This document shows positions 20,530-63,154 of a DNA stretch of 64,000 bases, in pieces (positions within the stretch are counted from its first letter, which is position 1; every line of letters begins with the position of its first letter). The stretch covers positions 372,001 to 436,000 of the forward strand of contig NZ_BMGS01000004.1 in assembly GCF_014640315.1 (NCBI RefSeq). Reading direction: 5' to 3'. The notes under the pieces were generated by a model, which searched no databases, had not been told where the DNA came from, and was given only the letters and a program-made list of their open reading frames with translations. The DNA comes from Hymenobacter glacieicola. Lineage in GTDB: Bacteria; Bacteroidota; Bacteroidia; Cytophagales; Hymenobacteraceae. Made by a program: the position numbers and the translations under genes.

Positions 20530-20580
20530 GCGGATGGTAGTCAAGCGAAGTGATGGTTAAGCCGGTAAAAAAGGAGAACT

Positions 20581-20679
20581 GTCATCCTAAGCTTCACGAA
20601 GAACCTAATCACGCCAGCGTGGCCTCGAACCAACGATTCGTTCCCGCGTGATTAGGTCCTTTGCGTTGCTCAGCATGAC
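20581..20679. repeat. Palindromic intergenic repeat, family R1 copy A
   Basis: An imperfect inverted repeat about 99 bases long. The arms begin GTCATCCTAAGC and end (inverted) GTCATGCTGAGC, both running through AACCTAATCACGC / GACCTAATCACGC to a centre that reads, on the minus strand, CGAATCGTTGGTTCGA. Related copies occur at 55441 and 63234. Lies between convergent fasciclin and dehydrogenase genes. Confidence 0.8.
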
Positions 20680-20704
20680 AACAACTTTCTCACCATCTAC
20701 GACC

Positions 20705-21718: not shown

Positions 21719-22645
21719 TTACTTCCGGTTGTCGTCGCCTTCCAGCATGCTCACGTAGCTGTCGTAGCGCGGGAGGGCAATTTTGCCCTTGTCCACGGCC
21801 TCGCGCACGGCGCAACCGGGCTCGTGCAGGTGCTGGCAGTTGTGGTAGCGGCACTGGTTGAGCAGGGCGCGCATTTCGGGGAAGAAGTGGGCCAGCTCGC
21901 CCGGCTTCATATCCACCAGCCCCAGCTCCTTGATGCCGGGCGTGTCGATGAGGTAGGTGCCGGGCCGTACTTCCAGCATTTCGGCGAAGGTAGTAGTGTG
22001 CACACCCTTGTCGGAAAACTCGCTGATTTCGGCTGTTTTTAGGTCCAGGTCCGGCACCAGCACGTTGATCAGCGTGCTTTTTCCTACCCCCGAGTGGCCC
22101 GACAGCAGGGATACTTTGCCGTCCAGCAGCGCGTCAATGGCCGCTACCCCTTCGCCGGTGTGCGCCGAGCAGCGCAGGCCGGGGTAGCCTACCCGCTGGT
22201 ACATCATCAGAATCTGCTCCTGATAATCAGCCAGATCTTCGTCGTAGAGGTCGGTTTTGTTGAACAGCAGCGTCACGGGGATGCTGTAGGCCTCGGCCGT
22301 CACCAGAAATCGGTCGATGAACCCGAAAGAGGTAGCCGGTGAGGCCAGCGTTACCACCAGCAAAGCCTGGTCGAGGTTGGCGGCCACAATGTGGGCGTGC
22401 TCGGCCTTGTGCACCGAGCGGCGGATAATGTAGTTGCGCCGCGGCTCAATATGATGAATCACCCCCGCACCTTCCGTCTGCTCCTCCACCGTAAAATCTA
22501 CCTGGTCACCCACGGCCAGCGGGTTGCTCACTTTCAGGCCCTTGTGCTTGAATTTGCCCCGCAGCCGGCAGCGGTGCAGCTGGCCGGTAGCCGTTTCGCG
22601 CACGATATACCATGAGCCCGTAGATTTAACGATGATTCCGGTCAT
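21719..22645 (-). CDS. rsgA: Ribosome small-subunit-dependent GTPase RsgA
   Basis: A 308-residue circularly permuted GTPase that helps late 30S subunit maturation. Order of motifs is the permuted one: OB-fold (about 1-70), G4 NKTD (129-132), G1 GHSGVGKS (183-190), G3 DTPG (234-237), then a C-terminal zinc site CRYHNCQHLHEPGC (Cys265, Cys270, His272, Cys278). All catalytic motifs are intact and the length is standard. The ATG at 22645 is followed directly by a beta-strand, as in the family. Downstream is the dehydrogenase on the same strand, 129 bases away. Confidence 0.97.
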   Translation of the reverse strand: MTGIIVKSTGSWYIVRETATGQLHRCRLRGKFKHKGLKVSNPLAVGDQVDFTVEEQTEGAGVIHHIEPRRNYIIRRSVHKAEHAHIVAANLDQALLVVTLASPATSFGFIDRFLVTAEAYSIPVTLLFNKTDLYDEDLADYQEQILMMYQRVGYPGLRCSAHTGEGVAAIDALLDGKVSLLSGHSGVGKSTLINVLVPDLDLKTAEISEFSDKGVHTTTFAEMLEVRPGTYLIDTPGIKELGLVDMKPGELAHFFPEMRALLNQCRYHNCQHLHEPGCAVREAVDKGKIALPRYDSYVSMLEGDDNRK

Positions 22646-22684
22646 ATTGCTAGGGTGTGGGGGAAGGAGGGTGTGAGTTTGGGA

Positions 22685-22781
22685 AGTGAGATGGTGAAAT
22701 GGTGAGTTGATGTTTTAGCCGGCAGGTATGGGCTGCCGAACAGTACACTCGCCATTTTACTATCCCACCACTTCACTATCT
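22685..22781. repeat. Nested palindromic repeat, GGTGA family (R4), overlapping the waaA stop
   Basis: Left arm 22685-22706 (AGTGAGATGGTGAAATGG then TGAG) pairs imperfectly with 22747-22781, which read on the minus strand includes AGTAAAATGGCGAGT. Inside is a perfect CGGCAG/CTGCCG hairpin (22720-22725, 22733-22738). The right arm encodes the last waaA codons and its TAG. Similar DNA occurs inside valS at 61073 and at 41110. Confidence 0.6.
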
Positions 22782-24010
22782 AACCAGCTCATGATTTTGC
22801 CGGTGGCGCCGCTGTGGTCGTGCACGTAGTCTAGGCTCAGGTCCTGGACCGTCAGGCGGGCTTCCTCGCGGTGGTAGAGCGGCCCAAAGGCCGTGAGTAA
22901 CTCATCGGCGGAGGAAATTGGGAAGGCGCACCCAAGCTCCACCAAGTCCTGAGCTTCCTGAAACTTGTAGTACGTAGGCCCAAAGAACAGTGGAAGGCCA
23001 AAAGCAGCAGCTTCCAGCGTGTTGTGCAGCCCTTTGCCAAAGGCCCCGCCAATGTAGGCGTAGTGCCCAAACCGGTACAACTGGCTGAGCAGGCCCACGT
23101 TATCCATCAGCAAAACGCGGCTTTCGGCCACGGTAGCGCCCGTAGCCTGGGAGTAGCGCACCACCCGACCGGGCAGGGCGTGCTCCACCAAGCGCAGGTT
23201 GGTTTCGCTGATTTCATGCGGGGCCACGATGAAGCGCAGCTGATCGGCGTACTGGTGCAGCAGGGGCGTAAGCGCGGGCATATCCTCGGGCCAGCTGCTG
23301 CCAATGATAAAGACTGGGGCCCAATCGTCGGTGAAGGCATCCACCAGCGGCAGGGCGCGGGGCGGGGCCGAGGCCGTGCGCACTACCGTATCGAAGCGGG
23401 TGTCGCCGGCCACGCTGGCGTGGGCTATACCGGCCCGGCGCAACAAGTCCACGGAGGCCTGATTCTGGGTAAAGATGTGAGTGAAGCGGCTGAGGATGCG
23501 GCGGAAAAAGCCTCCCCAGGGCTGGAAAAAAGCCTGTTCCGGCCGGAAAATAGCCGAAACGCAAATAGCAGGAATGCCCCGGCGCCGCAGCTCAGTCAGG
23601 AAATAATACCAGAACTCGTACTTCACAAACACGGCCAGCGTAGGGTGCACGGCGTCCAGGAAAGTGCGGGCGTGCTCGGCCGTATCTAGGGGTAGGTAAA
23701 ACACGTAGGCCGCGCCGGGCCAGTTCTTGCGCACCTCGTAGCCTGAGGGCGAAAAGAACGTCAGCACGATTTTGTGGCCGGGGTGACGGGCCACGTAGGC
23801 TTCCATCAGGGGGCGGCCCTGCTCAAACTCACCCAGGGAGGCGCAGTGAAACCAAGCCAGGGGGGCCGTTTCGTGGCGCAGCGCCTCCTGAATATGCGGC
23901 AGCAAGTTGCGCCGGCCCTGCACCCACTGCGCCGCCTTCGGCACGAAGGGGGCTACCAGCCGCAGGAGCAGCGCGTACAAGGGCAGAACAATGGAATAAA
24001 GGAAAAGCAA
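22760..24010 (-). CDS. waaA: 3-deoxy-D-manno-octulosonic acid (KDO) transferase
   Basis: A 416-residue inner-membrane-associated GT-B enzyme that adds KDO from CMP-KDO to lipid IV-A during lipopolysaccharide synthesis. An N-terminal hydrophobic anchor (YSIVLPLYALLLRLVAPF) is followed by FHCASLGEFEQGRPL with the catalytic Glu, KIVLTFFSPSGYE, and the C-terminal donor-site segments HYAYIGGAFGKGLHNTLEAAAFGLPLFFGP. These are the family hallmarks. A stop lies 12 bases upstream, so the TTG at 24010 is the earliest start. The last residues (SEVVG) and stop are encoded by the arm of a palindromic repeat. It shows that the organism makes KDO-containing lipid A. Confidence 0.95.
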   Translation of the reverse strand: MLFLYSIVLPLYALLLRLVAPFVPKAAQWVQGRRNLLPHIQEALRHETAPLAWFHCASLGEFEQGRPLMEAYVARHPGHKIVLTFFSPSGYEVRKNWPGAAYVFYLPLDTAEHARTFLDAVHPTLAVFVKYEFWYYFLTELRRRGIPAICVSAIFRPEQAFFQPWGGFFRRILSRFTHIFTQNQASVDLLRRAGIAHASVAGDTRFDTVVRTASAPPRALPLVDAFTDDWAPVFIIGSSWPEDMPALTPLLHQYADQLRFIVAPHEISETNLRLVEHALPGRVVRYSQATGATVAESRVLLMDNVGLLSQLYRFGHYAYIGGAFGKGLHNTLEAAAFGLPLFFGPTYYKFQEAQDLVELGCAFPISSADELLTAFGPLYHREEARLTVQDLSLDYVHDHSGATGKIMSWLDSEVVG

Positions 24011-24231
24011 CGTCGAAAGTCAGGTGTCAAGTGAAACAGCCCCAAAATACCACAAGGAAGCTGGACAGCTCCCGCCCCGAAAAAGCAGCCAGCACTTTCT
24101 CTAAGGCCGAAACTACGGCGCCGAACTAAAAACCGCGCGCAACCTACCATACGCTAGCCGCTGCCGCGGGCTGCTGGGCGCAACCGCGCCGCAAAAGTAC
24201 GGGGTTCCGGTCCGGCCGCCGCACCATAACC

Positions 24232-53727: not shown

Positions 53728-54366
53728 ATGGAAAATCCCGTAATCATTTTGGGTGCGCAAGCCGTCGGCACGGCCGCCCTCGACGCCTTTCAAAGCAATG
53801 ACGTCGTTGTGTATTGCCTGCTCGATGATGACGCCGCCCTGCAGAATACTGAACTGAACGACGTGCCGGTAATGGGCAACACCGACGACAAGGAGCTGCT
53901 GAAACTACTGGGCAAAAAGTGCGAAGTTTTCGTGGCTACCGAGGATACGGCCAGCCGCCGCAGTCTTACGGGCATGTTGCGCCAGGAATACGAAGTAGCG
54001 CCCGTCAATGCCATTCACCAGCGCGCCAGCGTGTCGCCGCACGCGTGGCTGGGGCACGGCAATTTGGTGGGAGCCAATGCCGTGGTAGCGGGCACGGCCA
54101 AGATTGGTGACGGCTGCATTCTGGGCGCCAACGCCATTGTGGACGTGAAAGCCGAACTCGGCGACTACGCCCAGCTCGGGGCCGGGGCCATTCTCAATGC
54201 CGACGTGAAAGTGGGCGAGCTGGCATTTATCGGGGCGGGGGCCGTGGTTGTAGCCGGCGTGAAAATCGGGGCCAAAGCCCGCGTGGGCGCCGGCTCCGTA
54301 GTGGTGGCTGATGTACCCGCCGGCCAGACGGTGTTCGGCAACCCAGCTCAGCTAATTAAGAATTAA
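53728..54366 (+). CDS. NeuD/PglD-like sugar acyltransferase (left-handed beta-helix)
   Basis: A 212-residue enzyme. The N-terminal ~75 residues form a Rossmann-like PglD_N domain (NPVIILGAQAVGTAALDAF ... VVYCLLDDD); the rest is a left-handed parallel beta-helix of hexapeptide repeats ([LIV]G..[ACV]...), e.g. GHGNLVGANAVVAGTAKIGDGCILGANAIVDVKAELGDYAQLGAGAIL. The family O- or N-acetylates nucleotide sugars such as sialic acid or bacillosamine for surface glycans. The final codons AAG AAT TAA lie inside the left arm of a palindromic AATTAAG repeat. Acetyl-CoA is the expected donor; the acceptor sugar is unknown. Confidence 0.85.
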   Translation: MENPVIILGAQAVGTAALDAFQSNDVVVYCLLDDDAALQNTELNDVPVMGNTDDKELLKLLGKKCEVFVATEDTASRRSLTGMLRQEYEVAPVNAIHQRASVSPHAWLGHGNLVGANAVVAGTAKIGDGCILGANAIVDVKAELGDYAQLGAGAILNADVKVGELAFIGAGAVVVAGVKIGAKARVGAGSVVVADVPAGQTVFGNPAQLIKN

Positions 54367-54454
54367 GAATGAACAATTAAGAATTGGGTAGTGCCACTGC
54401 TGGGCGAATACTCCTGATTCCTGATAGTCAATTCTTAATTCCTGATTCTTAATT
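54354..54454. repeat. AATTAAG inverted repeat (R3) containing the NeuD-like stop
   Basis: Left arm (54354-54385) holds AATTAAGAATTAAGAAT and AATTAAGAATT; right arm (54430-54454) on the minus strand reads AATTAAGAATCAGGAATTAAGAATT in two parts. The gene stop TAA (54364-54366) lies inside the left arm. The right end reaches 11 bases from the trhO start. Confidence 0.6.
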
Positions 54455-54465
54455 TTTACTTGAAA

Positions 54466-55440: not shown

Positions 55441-55540
55441 GTTACCCTGAACGCAGCGAAGGACTTTATCAGGCGAGAACGAATCGGTAAGACGATGGTT
55501 GCTCTCGCCTGACAAAGTCCTTCGCTGCGTTCAGGTTGAC
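55441..55540. repeat. Palindromic intergenic repeat, family R1 copy B
   Basis: A 100-base nearly perfect inverted repeat. The left arm starts GTTACCCTGAACGCAGCG; the right arm, inverted, starts GTCAACCTGAACGCAGCG. Centre GAACGAATCGGTAAG is akin to copies A and C. It begins 22 bases after the trhO stop. Confidence 0.8.
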
Positions 55541-55634: not shown

Positions 55635-56507
55635 ATGCCCATCGCCGAATCGGAGCTGATCCTCAACAAGGATGGCAGCATCTATCACCTGAACCTGCTA
55701 CCCGACCACCTTTCTGAAACCATCATCACGGTTGGCGACCCGGAGCGTGTACCCACCGTCAGCCAGCACTTCGACTCTATTGAGACGATAATTCAGAAGC
55801 GTGAGTTTGTAACCCACGTGGGTTACTACCGCGGCAAGCGCCTCACCGTCATCAGCACGGGCATGGGCACCGACAACATCGACATCCTGATGAATGAGCT
55901 GGACGCGCTGGTGAACATTGACTTCGTGACCCGCGAGCCACGCCCGTTGGAGGAGCGCATCAACCTGCGCATTGTGCGGATAGGTACCAGCGGTTCCCTG
56001 CAGGCCGATATTCCCGTGGGCTCCCTGCTGGTATCAGAGCACGCCGTGGGGTTGGATTCCTTGATGCAGTTCTATCCGCTGGTAGAAACTGGTCTGGAAG
56101 TAGAGGTAGCGCGCGGCATACAGCAAAGCCTGCAGCTTGACTACCGCCCGTATTGCGTCCGTGGCTCTGATTTGCTGCGCGAGCAGCTAGGCGCGGGCAT
56201 GATTACCGGCAATACGCTCACCTGCCCCGGCTTCTACGGTCCCCAGGGCCGGGTGCTGCGCCTCGACCTGCGCCTGCCCACTCTGATTCAGCAATTCCAG
56301 CAGTTCCGCCACCACAGCGCCGAGGGCGAGTTCCGCCTCACCAACTTCGAGATGGAGACGGCCGGCTACTACTCCCTGGGCCGCATGCTGGGCCACGAGG
56401 TAGTATCCTTGAACGCCATTGTAGCCAACCGCGCTACCGGTGAATTCGCCACCAACTCCGAAGAGGTCATCAACCAACTGATTGCCACCACCCTGGAACG
56501 CCTCTAA
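55635..56507 (+). CDS. Nucleoside phosphorylase (uridine-phosphorylase-like)
   Basis: A 290-residue PNP/UDP-family enzyme that phosphorolyses nucleosides to free base and ribose 1-phosphate. Motifs: ETIITVGDPERV (phosphate site), VISTGMGTDNIDILMNELDALV (phosphate and ribose site), IRIGTSGSLQADIPVGSLLV (ribose/base loop), and FEMETAGYYSLGRML (EMET, ribose contact). It is Udp-like in overall feel, but the base specificity is not determined. The ATG at 55635 is used, since the frame extension to 55536 lies in the repeat. The gene ends exactly at the edge of an ACGGATT palindrome. Confidence 0.9.
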   Translation: MPIAESELILNKDGSIYHLNLLPDHLSETIITVGDPERVPTVSQHFDSIETIIQKREFVTHVGYYRGKRLTVISTGMGTDNIDILMNELDALVNIDFVTREPRPLEERINLRIVRIGTSGSLQADIPVGSLLVSEHAVGLDSLMQFYPLVETGLEVEVARGIQQSLQLDYRPYCVRGSDLLREQLGAGMITGNTLTCPGFYGPQGRVLRLDLRLPTLIQQFQQFRHHSAEGEFRLTNFEMETAGYYSLGRMLGHEVVSLNAIVANRATGEFATNSEEVINQLIATTLERL

Positions 56508-56768
56508 ATCACGGATTTAGATGGATTTTTTGGATTACACGGATTCGTTGTCTGGCTGGTTTGCGCACTCACTAGGCGTTCTGGCAGTTCTGCAAAACAC
56601 TGACGTTAGGAGGCCGTGACCTGCCCCAGTAGCTTCCTGCTACCGCCAAAAAAGCCCGCTTGACGTCTTGTCAAGCGGGCTTTTTATTTCGTGCAACGAA
56701 CATTCTTGTGGAGGTGGACTACCTGAAAAAATCCGTGTAATCCGAAAAATCCGTCTCAATCCGTGATT
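56507..56768. repeat. ACGGATT-type inverted repeat (R2) flanking a terminator and bounding two genes
   Basis: Left arm (56507-56545) contains AATCACGGATTTAGATGG and GGATTACACGGATT. The right arm (56730-56768), inverted, contains AATCACGGATTGAGACGG and GGATTACACGGATT, about 85-90% identical by eye. A normal terminator sits between the arms. Each arm touches the stop codon of its neighbouring gene. Confidence 0.75.
56648..56686. terminator. Bidirectional terminator inside the R2 repeat
   Basis: GCCCGCTTGAC/GTCAAGCGGGC (56654-56664, 56670-56680) with A6 before and T5 after. Confidence 0.92.
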
Positions 56769-60463: not shown

Positions 60464-63154
60464 ATGTCCATCGCCAAAACCTATACTCCCGCCGACGTTG
60501 AAGCCAAATGGTACCAGCGCTGGCAGGAGCAGGGCTTCTTTAAAGCCAAAGCCAACCCCCGCAAACAGCCCTACTCAGTGGTTATTCCGCCGCCCAACGT
60601 AACGGGCGTGCTGCACATGGGCCACATGCTCAACAATACCATTCAGGATGTGCTGGTGCGCCGGGCCCGCATGCAGGGCAAGGAAGCCTGCTGGGTGCCC
60701 GGCACCGACCACGCCAGTATTGCCACCGAAGCCAAGGTAGTAGCGTTACTCAAGGAGCAGGGCATCGAAAAGAAGGATCTGACCCGGGAGCAGTTCCTGG
60801 AGCACGCTTTTGCCTGGAAGGAGAAGTACGGCGGCATTATTCTGGAGCAGCTTAAGCAGCTGGGCGCTTCCTGCGACTGGGACCGGACGCGCTTCACCAT
60901 GGAGCCGGAACTGACCGATGCCGTCCTGCGCGTGTTCGTGGACTTGTTTCAGAAAGGCCTGATTTACCGCGGGGTACGCATGGTAAACTGGGACCCCCTG
61001 GGCCAAACGGCGCTCAGCGACGAAGAGGTAATTCCCAAGGACGTGATGGCCAAGATGTACCACCTGCGTTACGAGGTGGTGAAAGGTGATGAGGTGAAAG
61101 GTGAGGGGGTGAATGGGGCAGAGCAACCGCCTCACTCCATCACCTCTTCACCTCATTACTTGACGGTGGCTACCTCCCGGCCCGAAACCATCATGGCCGA
61201 CGTGGCCGTGGCCGTAAACCCGAACGACCCGCGCTATACCCATTTGCACGGCGCTAAGGTGCGCATTCCGCTGCTGGGTCGCGAGATTCCGGTGATTCTG
61301 GACGAGTACGTGAGCATCGACTTCGGGACGGGCGCGCTGAAAGTGACGCCGGCCCACGATTTGAACGACTACGAGCTGGGCGTCAAGCACAACCTGCCCG
61401 TCATCGACATTCTCCACAACGACGGCACCCTCAACGACAAGGCCGTGCTGTACGTGGGACAGGACCGCTTTGCCGCCCGCCGCAACATTGTTAAGGACCT
61501 GGAGGAAGCCGGCCACCTGATGAAGGTGGAGGAGTACGCCAGCATCGTCCAGACCTCGGAGCGGACCAAGGCCGTCATTGAGCCCCGCCTGAGCATGCAG
61601 TGGTTCCTGAAAATGGAGCACCTGGCCAAGCCCGCCCTGGAGGTAGTAGAAAACGATACTGTGAAGCTGCACCCGGCCAAGTTCAAGAACACCTACCGGG
61701 TGTGGATGGAAAACGTGCGCGACTGGTGCATTTCGCGGCAGCTGTGGTGGGGCCAGCAGATTCCGGCCTACTACCTGCCCGATGGCACCTTCGTGGTGGC
61801 CCTCAATCCCGAGGAGGCCCTCCGGCTGGCTCGGGTGCAAAGCGGCAACGACGAGCTGCAGCTAACTGACCTGCGCCAGGATGAGGACGTGCTGGATACC
61901 TGGTTTTCCTCGTGGCTGTGGCCCATTTCGGTGTTCGACGGCTTCAAGGACCCCGACAACGCCGACGTTAACTATTTCTACCCCACCAACGACCTGGTAA
62001 CGGGCCCCGACATTCTGTTCTTCTGGGTGGCCCGCATGATTATGGCTGGCCTGGAGTACCGCCGGGAAATTCCGTTCCGCAACGTGTACCTCACGGGCAT
62101 TGTGCGCGACGCCCAGGGCCGCAAGATGAGCAAGCAGCTCGGCAACTCGCCCGACCCGCTGGACCTGATCAAGCAGTTTGGGGCCGATGGCGTCCGGACG
62201 GGCATGCTGTTCTCGGCCCCGGCCGGCAACGACTTGCTCTACGATGAGAAGCTGGTGGAGCAGGGCCGCAACTTCTGCAACAAGCTCTGGAACGCCTTCC
62301 GCCTAACTCAGGGCTGGGAGGTAGGCGCGGAGCTGCCGTTCGTGAATGCCAAGGCGGTGGAGTGGTTCTCGGCCAAGCTGCACACCACGCTCACGGAGCT
62401 GGACGAGCACTTCGAGAAGTTTCGGATGTCGGATGCGCTGATGACCGTGTACAAGCTGGTGTGGGACGATTTCTGCTCCGTGTACCTGGAGATGATCAAG
62501 CCCGCCTACCAGGCGCCCATCGACCCCGAAACCCTGCGGCTGACGACGGGCTTCCTCGAAACCCTGCTCAAGCTGCTGCACCCGTTCATGCCCTTCATCA
62601 CGGAGGAAATCTGGCACGAGCTGGCTGCGCGCGGCCCCAAGGACTACGTGTGCGTAGCCGCCTGGCCCAAAGCTCAGCCGGTGGCCGGCAGCGCCGAGCT
62701 GCTAACCCGCATGGACCGCGCCCTCGACATTGTGGCCGGTGTGCGCAACATCCGCAACCAGAAGGGTTTGGGCCCCAACAAGCCCCTGACTCTGGCCGCC
62801 AAAACCGACGATGTAGCCCTACTCCAGGACTACGACGCCATCATCCGCAAGCTGGCTTCCCTCACCGAAATCAGTGTAGTTGATGCTGCTCCCGCCGCGG
62901 CGGTAGGGTTCGTGTCGGGTGGGGCGGAGTTCTTCGTGCCCCTGGAAGGCCAGATTGACCTTGGGGCCGAAAAGGAGCGCCTGACCAAGGAAATTGAGTA
63001 CGCCCAGGGCTTCCGCGACTCGGTGCTGAAAAAGCTCGCCAACGAGAAATTCGTGCAGAATGCCAAACCCGACCTGGTGGAGCGCGAGCGGCAGAAGCTG
63101 GCCGATGCCGAAGCCAAGATTGCCGCCCTGGAACAAAGCCTGGCCGCGTTGTAG
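60464..63154 (+). CDS. valS: Valyl-tRNA synthetase
   Basis: An 896-residue class I synthetase that charges tRNA-Val and edits mis-charged Thr. HIGH motif is HMGH (51-54) and KMSKS-like motif KMSKQ (554-558). The CP1 editing domain (about 150-440) includes TVATSRPETIMADVAVAVNP, the editing-site motif. The C-terminal anticodon-binding and coiled-coil domain (DLGAEKERLTKEIEYAQGFRD ... DAEAKIAALEQSL) is normal. Residues ~206-231 (VKGDEVKGEGVNGAEQPPHSITSSPH) look like an extra insertion in CP1 encoded by a palindromic repeat. Reading frame intact; the protein is probably active. Confidence 0.97.
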   Translation: MSIAKTYTPADVEAKWYQRWQEQGFFKAKANPRKQPYSVVIPPPNVTGVLHMGHMLNNTIQDVLVRRARMQGKEACWVPGTDHASIATEAKVVALLKEQGIEKKDLTREQFLEHAFAWKEKYGGIILEQLKQLGASCDWDRTRFTMEPELTDAVLRVFVDLFQKGLIYRGVRMVNWDPLGQTALSDEEVIPKDVMAKMYHLRYEVVKGDEVKGEGVNGAEQPPHSITSSPHYLTVATSRPETIMADVAVAVNPNDPRYTHLHGAKVRIPLLGREIPVILDEYVSIDFGTGALKVTPAHDLNDYELGVKHNLPVIDILHNDGTLNDKAVLYVGQDRFAARRNIVKDLEEAGHLMKVEEYASIVQTSERTKAVIEPRLSMQWFLKMEHLAKPALEVVENDTVKLHPAKFKNTYRVWMENVRDWCISRQLWWGQQIPAYYLPDGTFVVALNPEEALRLARVQSGNDELQLTDLRQDEDVLDTWFSSWLWPISVFDGFKDPDNADVNYFYPTNDLVTGPDILFFWVARMIMAGLEYRREIPFRNVYLTGIVRDAQGRKMSKQLGNSPDPLDLIKQFGADGVRTGMLFSAPAGNDLLYDEKLVEQGRNFCNKLWNAFRLTQGWEVGAELPFVNAKAVEWFSAKLHTTLTELDEHFEKFRMSDALMTVYKLVWDDFCSVYLEMIKPAYQAPIDPETLRLTTGFLETLLKLLHPFMPFITEEIWHELAARGPKDYVCVAAWPKAQPVAGSAELLTRMDRALDIVAGVRNIRNQKGLGPNKPLTLAAKTDDVALLQDYDAIIRKLASLTEISVVDAAPAAAVGFVSGGAEFFVPLEGQIDLGAEKERLTKEIEYAQGFRDSVLKKLANEKFVQNAKPDLVERERQKLADAEAKIAALEQSLAAL
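61073..61156. repeat. In-frame palindromic insertion inside valS (R4-like)
   Basis: A G/A-rich left arm (61076-61117) made of GGTGAAAGGTGATGAGG-type repeats pairs imperfectly with a C/T-rich right arm (61130-61155, ctcactccatcacctcttc). Its codons give VKGDEVKGEGVNG and PPHSITSSPH. The core looks like the repeat at 22685. Inserted between EV and YLTVA in the editing domain. Confidence 0.6.

Follow-up and report, generated by a model that had tools for sequence, protein, structure and literature searches.

How does a palindromic repeat come to stand in frame within an essential gene, and what does it do there? The question is raised by the valyl-tRNA synthetase gene (valS) of Hymenobacter glacieicola, located in a 64,000-nucleotide stretch of DNA that is hereafter called the window. 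A sequence-only reading had proposed that an interspersed palindrome entered this essential gene in frame, and our analysis supports the proposal in part: an interspersed palindrome stands there in frame, and the phenomenon recurs genus-wide, with different repeat families at one site.

Palindromic segment in the valS gene

The features considered here are the following.

60464-63154, plus strand: valS, valyl-tRNA synthetase, 896 aa (open reading frame; best PDB match 1gax; TIGR00422)
61082-61159, plus strand: palindrome-derived segment K207-Y232, 26 codons, against 6 in uninserted relatives (ValS comparison; AlphaFold2)
61084-61112 (about), plus strand: 5′ arm, GGTGA-type units (RNA fold; stop count)
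61132-61161 (about), plus strand: 3′ arm, TCACC-type units pairing with those of the 5′ arm (RNA fold)
22685-22781, no strand assigned: dispersed E-type palindrome (start at G000:C4:394685), between the minus-strand ORFs 22763-24019 and 21722-22714

The encoded protein scored 925 bits against TIGR00422 (cut-off 612) and above the cut-off of NF004349, and its fold matched 1gax with a Z-score of 40.0 and an rmsd of 2.7 over 787 aligned residues, identifying it as a valyl-tRNA synthetase by both sequence and fold. The segment K207-Y232 sits between RYEVV and LTVATSRPET, where uninserted relatives carry six residues, GQEGQF or alike. The 26 residues first described as extra are thus real as a segment, but they replace six, so that the net gain is 20. 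Similarly, the imperfect palindrome reported at 61073-61156 exists but lies at about 61084-61161. The reading frame is kept across it, as had been noted, and the 896-aa ORF is intact; the spacing of the units in the 5′ arm keeps TGA out of the valS frame (no stops, against four and three in the other two forward frames). As RNA, the palindrome was predicted to fold with −56 kcal/mol (z = −5.99), a stability equalled in none of 200 shuffles. An Rfam search at E-values up to 1 returned only miRNA-precursor families, all far below their gathering scores.

The likeness to the intergenic palindrome at 22685-22781 holds in so far as both contain GGTGA-type units; it is loose, however, with arm matches little above those of shuffled sequences. 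Searched against the window, 1.0 Mb from elsewhere in this genome and 30 repeat loci, the two ValS arms reached ungapped matches of at best 25/34 and 28/40, against 22-23 (34-nt arm) and 25-27 (40-nt arm) for ten shuffled queries each. Such weak best matches suggest that in this genome the kinship is one of type rather than that of a close copy. The search for the palindrome that had been suggested showed that the E-type arm is dispersed: a three-unit arm with up to two mismatches gave 100 and 86 matches on the two strands of this genome and 3 and 3 for the reversed control, counts in which overlapping matches of one element are scored apart.

Genus-wide survey of ValS

Among 120 same-genus genomes, 119 gave ValS at E-values up to 1e-80 and all 119 sequences were extracted; the exception, G028, is an 82% complete genome with only the C-terminal part of ValS. 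Rather than being conserved in the wider family under different codons, the segment is missing, within the genus, from 76 of the 119 ValS, which have a short loop (72 by a script pattern and four more by eye). A longer segment occurs at the same point in the other 43 (42 by the pattern, plus G127). Assigned by eye on the DNA, 38 of these 43 have clear palindromic arms, built of short tandem units, and form seven families:

Family A, GTTGTCA units: 10 ValS
Family C, AGCTGTT units: 9 ValS
Family D, GCAAGC units: 7 ValS
Family F, AGAACTC units: 6 ValS
Family B, AGTAGTG units: 3 ValS
Family E, GGTGA units: 2 ValS, including that of the window genome (G000)
Family H, GAAGTGA units: 1 ValS
Longer segment, arms not clear: 5 ValS

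The 38 clear inserts taken together contain not a single stop codon when read in the ValS frame; the other forward frames have 88 and 147, and the three frames of the opposite strand 83, 47 and 85. The residues added number 17-28 in 36 of the 38 inserts, and 12 and 36 in the other two. Separately, valS appears to be frameshifted at loci L166 (G114) and L186 (G067).

Dispersed palindromes and their association with ValS inserts

Genome-wide patterns covered families A, C, E and F; they were made after the ValS inserts had been seen, but they fix only the arms. Of the 120 genomes, strict patterns detected dispersed palindromes with ValS-type arms in 20 for family A, 28 for C, 41 for E and 10 for F, and the reversed patterns gave none. 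The F figure comes from a looser pattern, the first one having matched 0 of 120 genomes. A few of the matches are ValS or Ddl-like copies: in family A the match of G070 falls in ValS, and in family C some fall in ValS (G008) or in the Ddl-like gene described below (G016). Outside long ORFs lay 56 of the 58 A and E match loci; the two exceptions are in G070 (ValS) and in G030 (a radical SAM gene). In this genome, 30 E loci, several of them neighbouring matches of one element, comprised 17 between genes of the same direction, 10 between convergent and 2 between divergent genes, with one undecided. In four single palindromes (L216:10230-10324, L217:10011-10115, L217:14426-14524 and L225:12264-12339) the arms are 98-100% complementary while the copies differ mutually, suggesting that one arm is corrected by the other.

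The family of the ValS insert is associated with the repeats resident in the same genome for A, C and F. Family A was found elsewhere in 6 of the 10 genomes with A in ValS and in 13 of the 110 others (Fisher’s exact test: p = 0.001), family C in 8 of 9 versus 20 of 111 (p = 3e-5), and family F in 4 of 6 versus 6 of 114 (p = 4e-4). For family E the association (2 of 2 versus 39 of 118, p = 0.11) was not significant, the sample being too small. No strict match turned up elsewhere in 4 of the 10 genomes with A in ValS, in 1 of the 9 with C and in 2 of the 6 with F. Inserts were also aligned locally to dispersed loci outside long ORFs, 18 for family A, 33 for E, 5 for C and 4 for F. Mean best scores to copies of the same family were 38 for A, 38 for C, 29 for F and 17 for E; scores to the other dispersed families were 9.5-20, and those to random DNA 11-12.

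Distribution of inserts over the ValS and RpoB trees

On a FastTree phylogeny of ValS (segment removed, 116 same-genus tips), insert presence required at least 22 changes against 34.5 in shuffles, and family state 31 changes against 41, indicating phylogenetic signal. If losses that exactly restore the loop are barred, the inserts form 31 separate groups, also with weak nodes collapsed. This number is an upper reading, because transfer of empty alleles would lower it.

An IQ-TREE phylogeny of RpoB covered 29 genomes picked for differing insert state (30 queried; G011 gave no match). There, G110 (family D) joins a pair formed by G118 (A) and G006 (no insert) with supports of 100 and 97. Sister pairs of unlike state include G134 (none) and G135 (E), G013 (none) and G093 (B), both at a support of 100, and G030 (C) and G004 (none) at 93; the window genome (E) pairs with G136 (F) at a support of 86 in IQ-TREE and 0.69 in FastTree. 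The empty allele of G004, with ordinary GQEGQF codons, is nested within an inserted clade. Since these 29 genomes were chosen for contrast, the count of insert presence on the RpoB tree (8 changes, 7.9 in shuffles) does not constitute a test. G094 and G013 are placed differently by the ValS and RpoB trees, so either valS is also transferred as a whole gene or the trees lack precision; part of the scatter may stem from such transfer of complete ValS alleles.

Similarity of inserts and their flanks

Inserts of the same family were on average 82% identical (114 pairs) and those of different families 58% (551 pairs), the latter serving as a baseline; gapped alignment inflates the identity of repetitive DNA. 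When the 114 same-family pairs were ranked by distance, the 25 farthest apart had insert DNA that was 65-87% identical and fourfold sites that were 55-67% identical, the insert being higher in each pair. The insert peptides of these pairs were only 47-75% identical against 78-82% for the enzymes, and over all 114 pairs the means were 68% and 87%, which argues against selection on the peptide.

Short-tract recombination carrying the inserts was considered and set aside, as flanks of same-family pairs were not clearly raised. Local minus gene-wide flank identity was about the same in 115 same-family and 746 different-insert pairs at all three flank widths. For 120-nt flanks, the values for same-family and different-insert pairs were −0.003 and +0.003 at a gene identity of 0.70-0.82, −0.001 and −0.019 at 0.82-0.87, and −0.013 and −0.024 at 0.87-0.95. 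The higher same-family values in two of the three bands are a weak sign of some exchange. Inserts that are more alike than fourfold sites, within flanks that are not clearly raised, favour repeated or recent entry, or rewriting, over one old insertion.

Predicted loop structure and effect on the enzyme

An AlphaFold2 model of ValS built with 40 sequences (mean pLDDT 88.1, pTM 0.80) predicted strands at 189-205 and 232-237 and gave pLDDT values below 50 at 209-229. In this model the segment is the disordered tip of a β-hairpin of the CP1 domain; 1gax has a short EGGG stretch at the same place. K293, T295, D299 and D302 of ValS align to K270, T272, D276 and D279 of 1gax, which we take to be the editing residues, and are invariant in the 40 sequences. 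Among 80 ValS sequences, of which 63 were readable by script, the loop has 10-12 residues in 43 and 15-35 in 20, so the hairpin tip is naturally variable in length. Several Bacteroidales ValS have an unrelated longer segment at the insert place; those of L085, L086, L091, L103 and L108 share a mutually similar longer loop of their own at this hairpin tip.

Consequences for editing or for mRNA structure had been suggested at the outset. With the editing residues kept and the tip variable and, by prediction, disordered, the segment is expected to have little effect on editing. As for the mRNA, an alignment of family C (8 sequences, 21 pairs) had 89% of its cells paired, and its covariation did not clearly exceed that of shuffles: 58 of 500 shuffles equalled it, and sliding the pairing by +1, −2 or −3 raised it. 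On the basis of this family, an RNA structure kept by selection was rejected.

In-frame palindromes in other genes

ValS is not the only enzyme concerned. A fused D-Ala-D-Ala-ligase-like (Ddl-like) gene of this genome (L217:11443-14367) contains a decayed palindrome in frame. Read by eye, the arms at this place were GTTGCCA/GTTGTCA in 10 loci, AGCTGTT in 7, GTTTC in 3, GAATGAAG in 1 and GAAGTGA in 1, counts that refer to the 22 loci read by script among the 30 best same-genus loci (L313-L342); the other 8 were unreadable in that count, although G066 and G009 could be read separately. Among the matches listed, the query halves lie nearly flush, with at most 15 bases between them, in 30 other genomes, which lack the insert. 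The Ddl-like gene is thus a second hot spot, where palindromes of five or more arm types occupy a single place without breaking the frame. A third case is the radical SAM gene of G030, with an A-type palindrome in frame. Its ortholog in this genome, 80% identical, carries there a segment of comparable length but unrelated sequence, so the place is a tolerant one; no clean empty allele was seen in this comparison of G030 with the ortholog.

A strict scan of 1.06 of the 5.04 Mb of this genome detected 173 palindromes, of which the 4 located in long ORFs were not convincing; it also missed the ValS and Ddl-like inserts, the arms of which are gapped or mismatched. A folding scan of this genome was swamped by GC-rich hairpins. 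In another scan, which left out the window and L032-L110, 40 of 277 palindromes lay in long ORFs; 24 of these were the ValS site (some genomes counted twice) and the rest include L217 and L233. A palindrome of the GTCATCCTGAGC type was also seen in Hymenobacter sp. IS2118 (L031:16927-17013); the frame in which it lies is open for 68 codons ahead of it and for 153 codons beyond it.

Origin of the ValS inserts

We consider it probable (roughly 0.7) that the ValS segment is a protein-coding palindromic element at a genus-wide hot spot, which several families have entered, probably replacing each other, many times. The observations point to independent entry or replacement rather than descent, and to an insert near neutrality. 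The source would be a copy or derivative of the dispersed Hymenobacter palindromes, whose arms are built of tandem units of 7-8 nt; members of several resident families would repeatedly enter the tip of the CP1 hairpin, probably replacing one another. The survivors would be those whose length is divisible by three and which lack a stop in the frame, the filter being an open frame and a tolerant loop, and the product a floppy, near-neutral loop. The act of entry may be template switching or a hairpin-driven exchange, a guess made because the search of this genome for a Y1 transposase came up empty. The empty allele contains a small quasi-palindrome, and insert arms often resemble the codons at the flanking junctions (by eye, without a statistic); both features would suit such a process. 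Several points weigh against the main reading: the ValS copy of this genome resembles dispersed E copies only loosely and the E association is not significant, some A, C and F genomes gave no strict match elsewhere, family state carries phylogenetic signal, same-family flanks are slightly more alike in two of three identity bands, few of the dispersed matches lie in long ORFs, and families were assigned by eye, with patterns designed after the inserts had been seen. More tentatively, and with well below even odds in our estimation, an active, transposase-independent process in Hymenobacter may swap palindromic cassettes at fixed sites in essential genes, repeatedly rewriting an occupied site from the resident family. 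If so, the ValS loop of a cell would be a record of its current repeat population.

Descent from a single ancient insertion, present in the ancestor of the genus and later split into the families, with empty alleles regained by horizontal replacement of valS, would account for the GAACGA-type loop core common to several families, for the phase and position that same-family inserts hold across distant genomes, and for the disagreement of the ValS and RpoB trees on G094 and G013. A like view was favoured for the Rickettsia palindromic elements (RPEs) of groups RPE-4/6/7 (PMC3767692). We regard this history as unlikely, however, since cross-family inserts are much less alike than same-family ones (58% against 82%), the ValS family tracks the resident families for A, C and F, an ordinary empty allele (G004) stands inside an inserted clade, same-family flanks are not clearly raised, and the core is also present in dispersed copies.

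Less probable again is that the segment is kept as useful, be it as a ribosome-slowing RNA hairpin or as a functional protein loop. The very stable predicted hairpin and the narrow range of added residues (17-28 in 36 of 38) agree with this, but 76 of the 119 ValS do without the segment and seven unlike sequences serve in the remainder; the peptides are less conserved than the enzymes, family C covariation is matched by shuffles, and the loop is disordered in the AlphaFold2 model. We give marginally less credence still to palindromes made on the spot by local slippage and template switching, with the likeness to dispersed repeats a convergence of tandem heptads. The quasi-palindrome of the empty allele, the short tandem units of the arms and the flank-like junctions mentioned above would fit such an origin, whereas the family-specific likeness to dispersed copies and the association by genome do not.

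Comparison with known palindromic repeats

RPEs, the closest known counterpart, are short dispersed palindromes found both between genes and in frame in conserved genes, where they are solvent-exposed in models, according to two reports (PMC2229807, PMC3767692); in the former, a guanylate kinase bearing an RPE was active with a changed substrate affinity (PMC2229807). The latter describes Wolbachia palindromic elements (WPEs) as protein-coding palindromes too and notes different RPE groups near one another in orthologs, weighing hot spots against a common origin; for RPE-4/6/7, every Rickettsia ortholog is reported to carry the insert at the same sites and a common origin is favoured (PMC3767692). 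Like RPEs and WPEs, the Hymenobacter palindromes are dispersed in many copies, some of them in frame in conserved genes (ValS, Ddl-like and radical SAM). Their host, however, belongs to the Bacteroidota and not to the Rickettsiales, and their arms consist of 7-8 nt tandem units. Empty orthologs are mixed with filled ones and seven families share one site, in contrast to WPEs and to RPE-4/6/7 as reported. Compared thus by description, the Hymenobacter element appears to work like an RPE, and it is not filed as one because the host differs.

The Hymenobacter palindromes also resemble the REP/RAYT system in being dispersed, mostly intergenic and present in many copies; REPs are reported to measure 20-40 bp (PMC3733652). 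A profile search for Y1_Tnp (PF01797) gave no match in this genome (G000), while the control search was positive in 5 of 14 genomes; a RAYT is therefore unlikely here. The target-site duplication of a MITE is unreadable, because the insert stands in place of six codons. No paper on palindromic repeats in Hymenobacter genes was found in a search by title and the start of the abstract, with subscription literature mostly outside it. The STRR sequences (short tandemly repeated heptanucleotides) of cyanobacteria are built of heptanucleotide units, as are Hymenobacter arms; to our knowledge they are neither palindromic nor protein-coding.

Whether different palindromes at one site reflect hot spots or one diverged old insertion is a question left open for RPEs (PMC3767692). 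In Hymenobacter, filled and empty orthologs occur in close species, with putative donors in the same genomes, so that entry and descent can be tested against each other. Several palindrome families at one ValS loop and at one place in another enzyme offer a direct look at the entry of repeats into genes, and the ValS inserts amount to a naturally occurring set of loop variants of an essential enzyme with a proofreading function.

Other repeats in the window

The palindrome at 22685-22781 overlaps the end of the minus-strand ORF 22763-24019 and may supply its last codons or its stop. Further long inverted repeats lie at 20580-20680, 54357-54458, 55446-55535 and 56507-56768 of the window, and are of the GTCATCCT/CCTGAACG, AATTAAG and AATCCGTG types.
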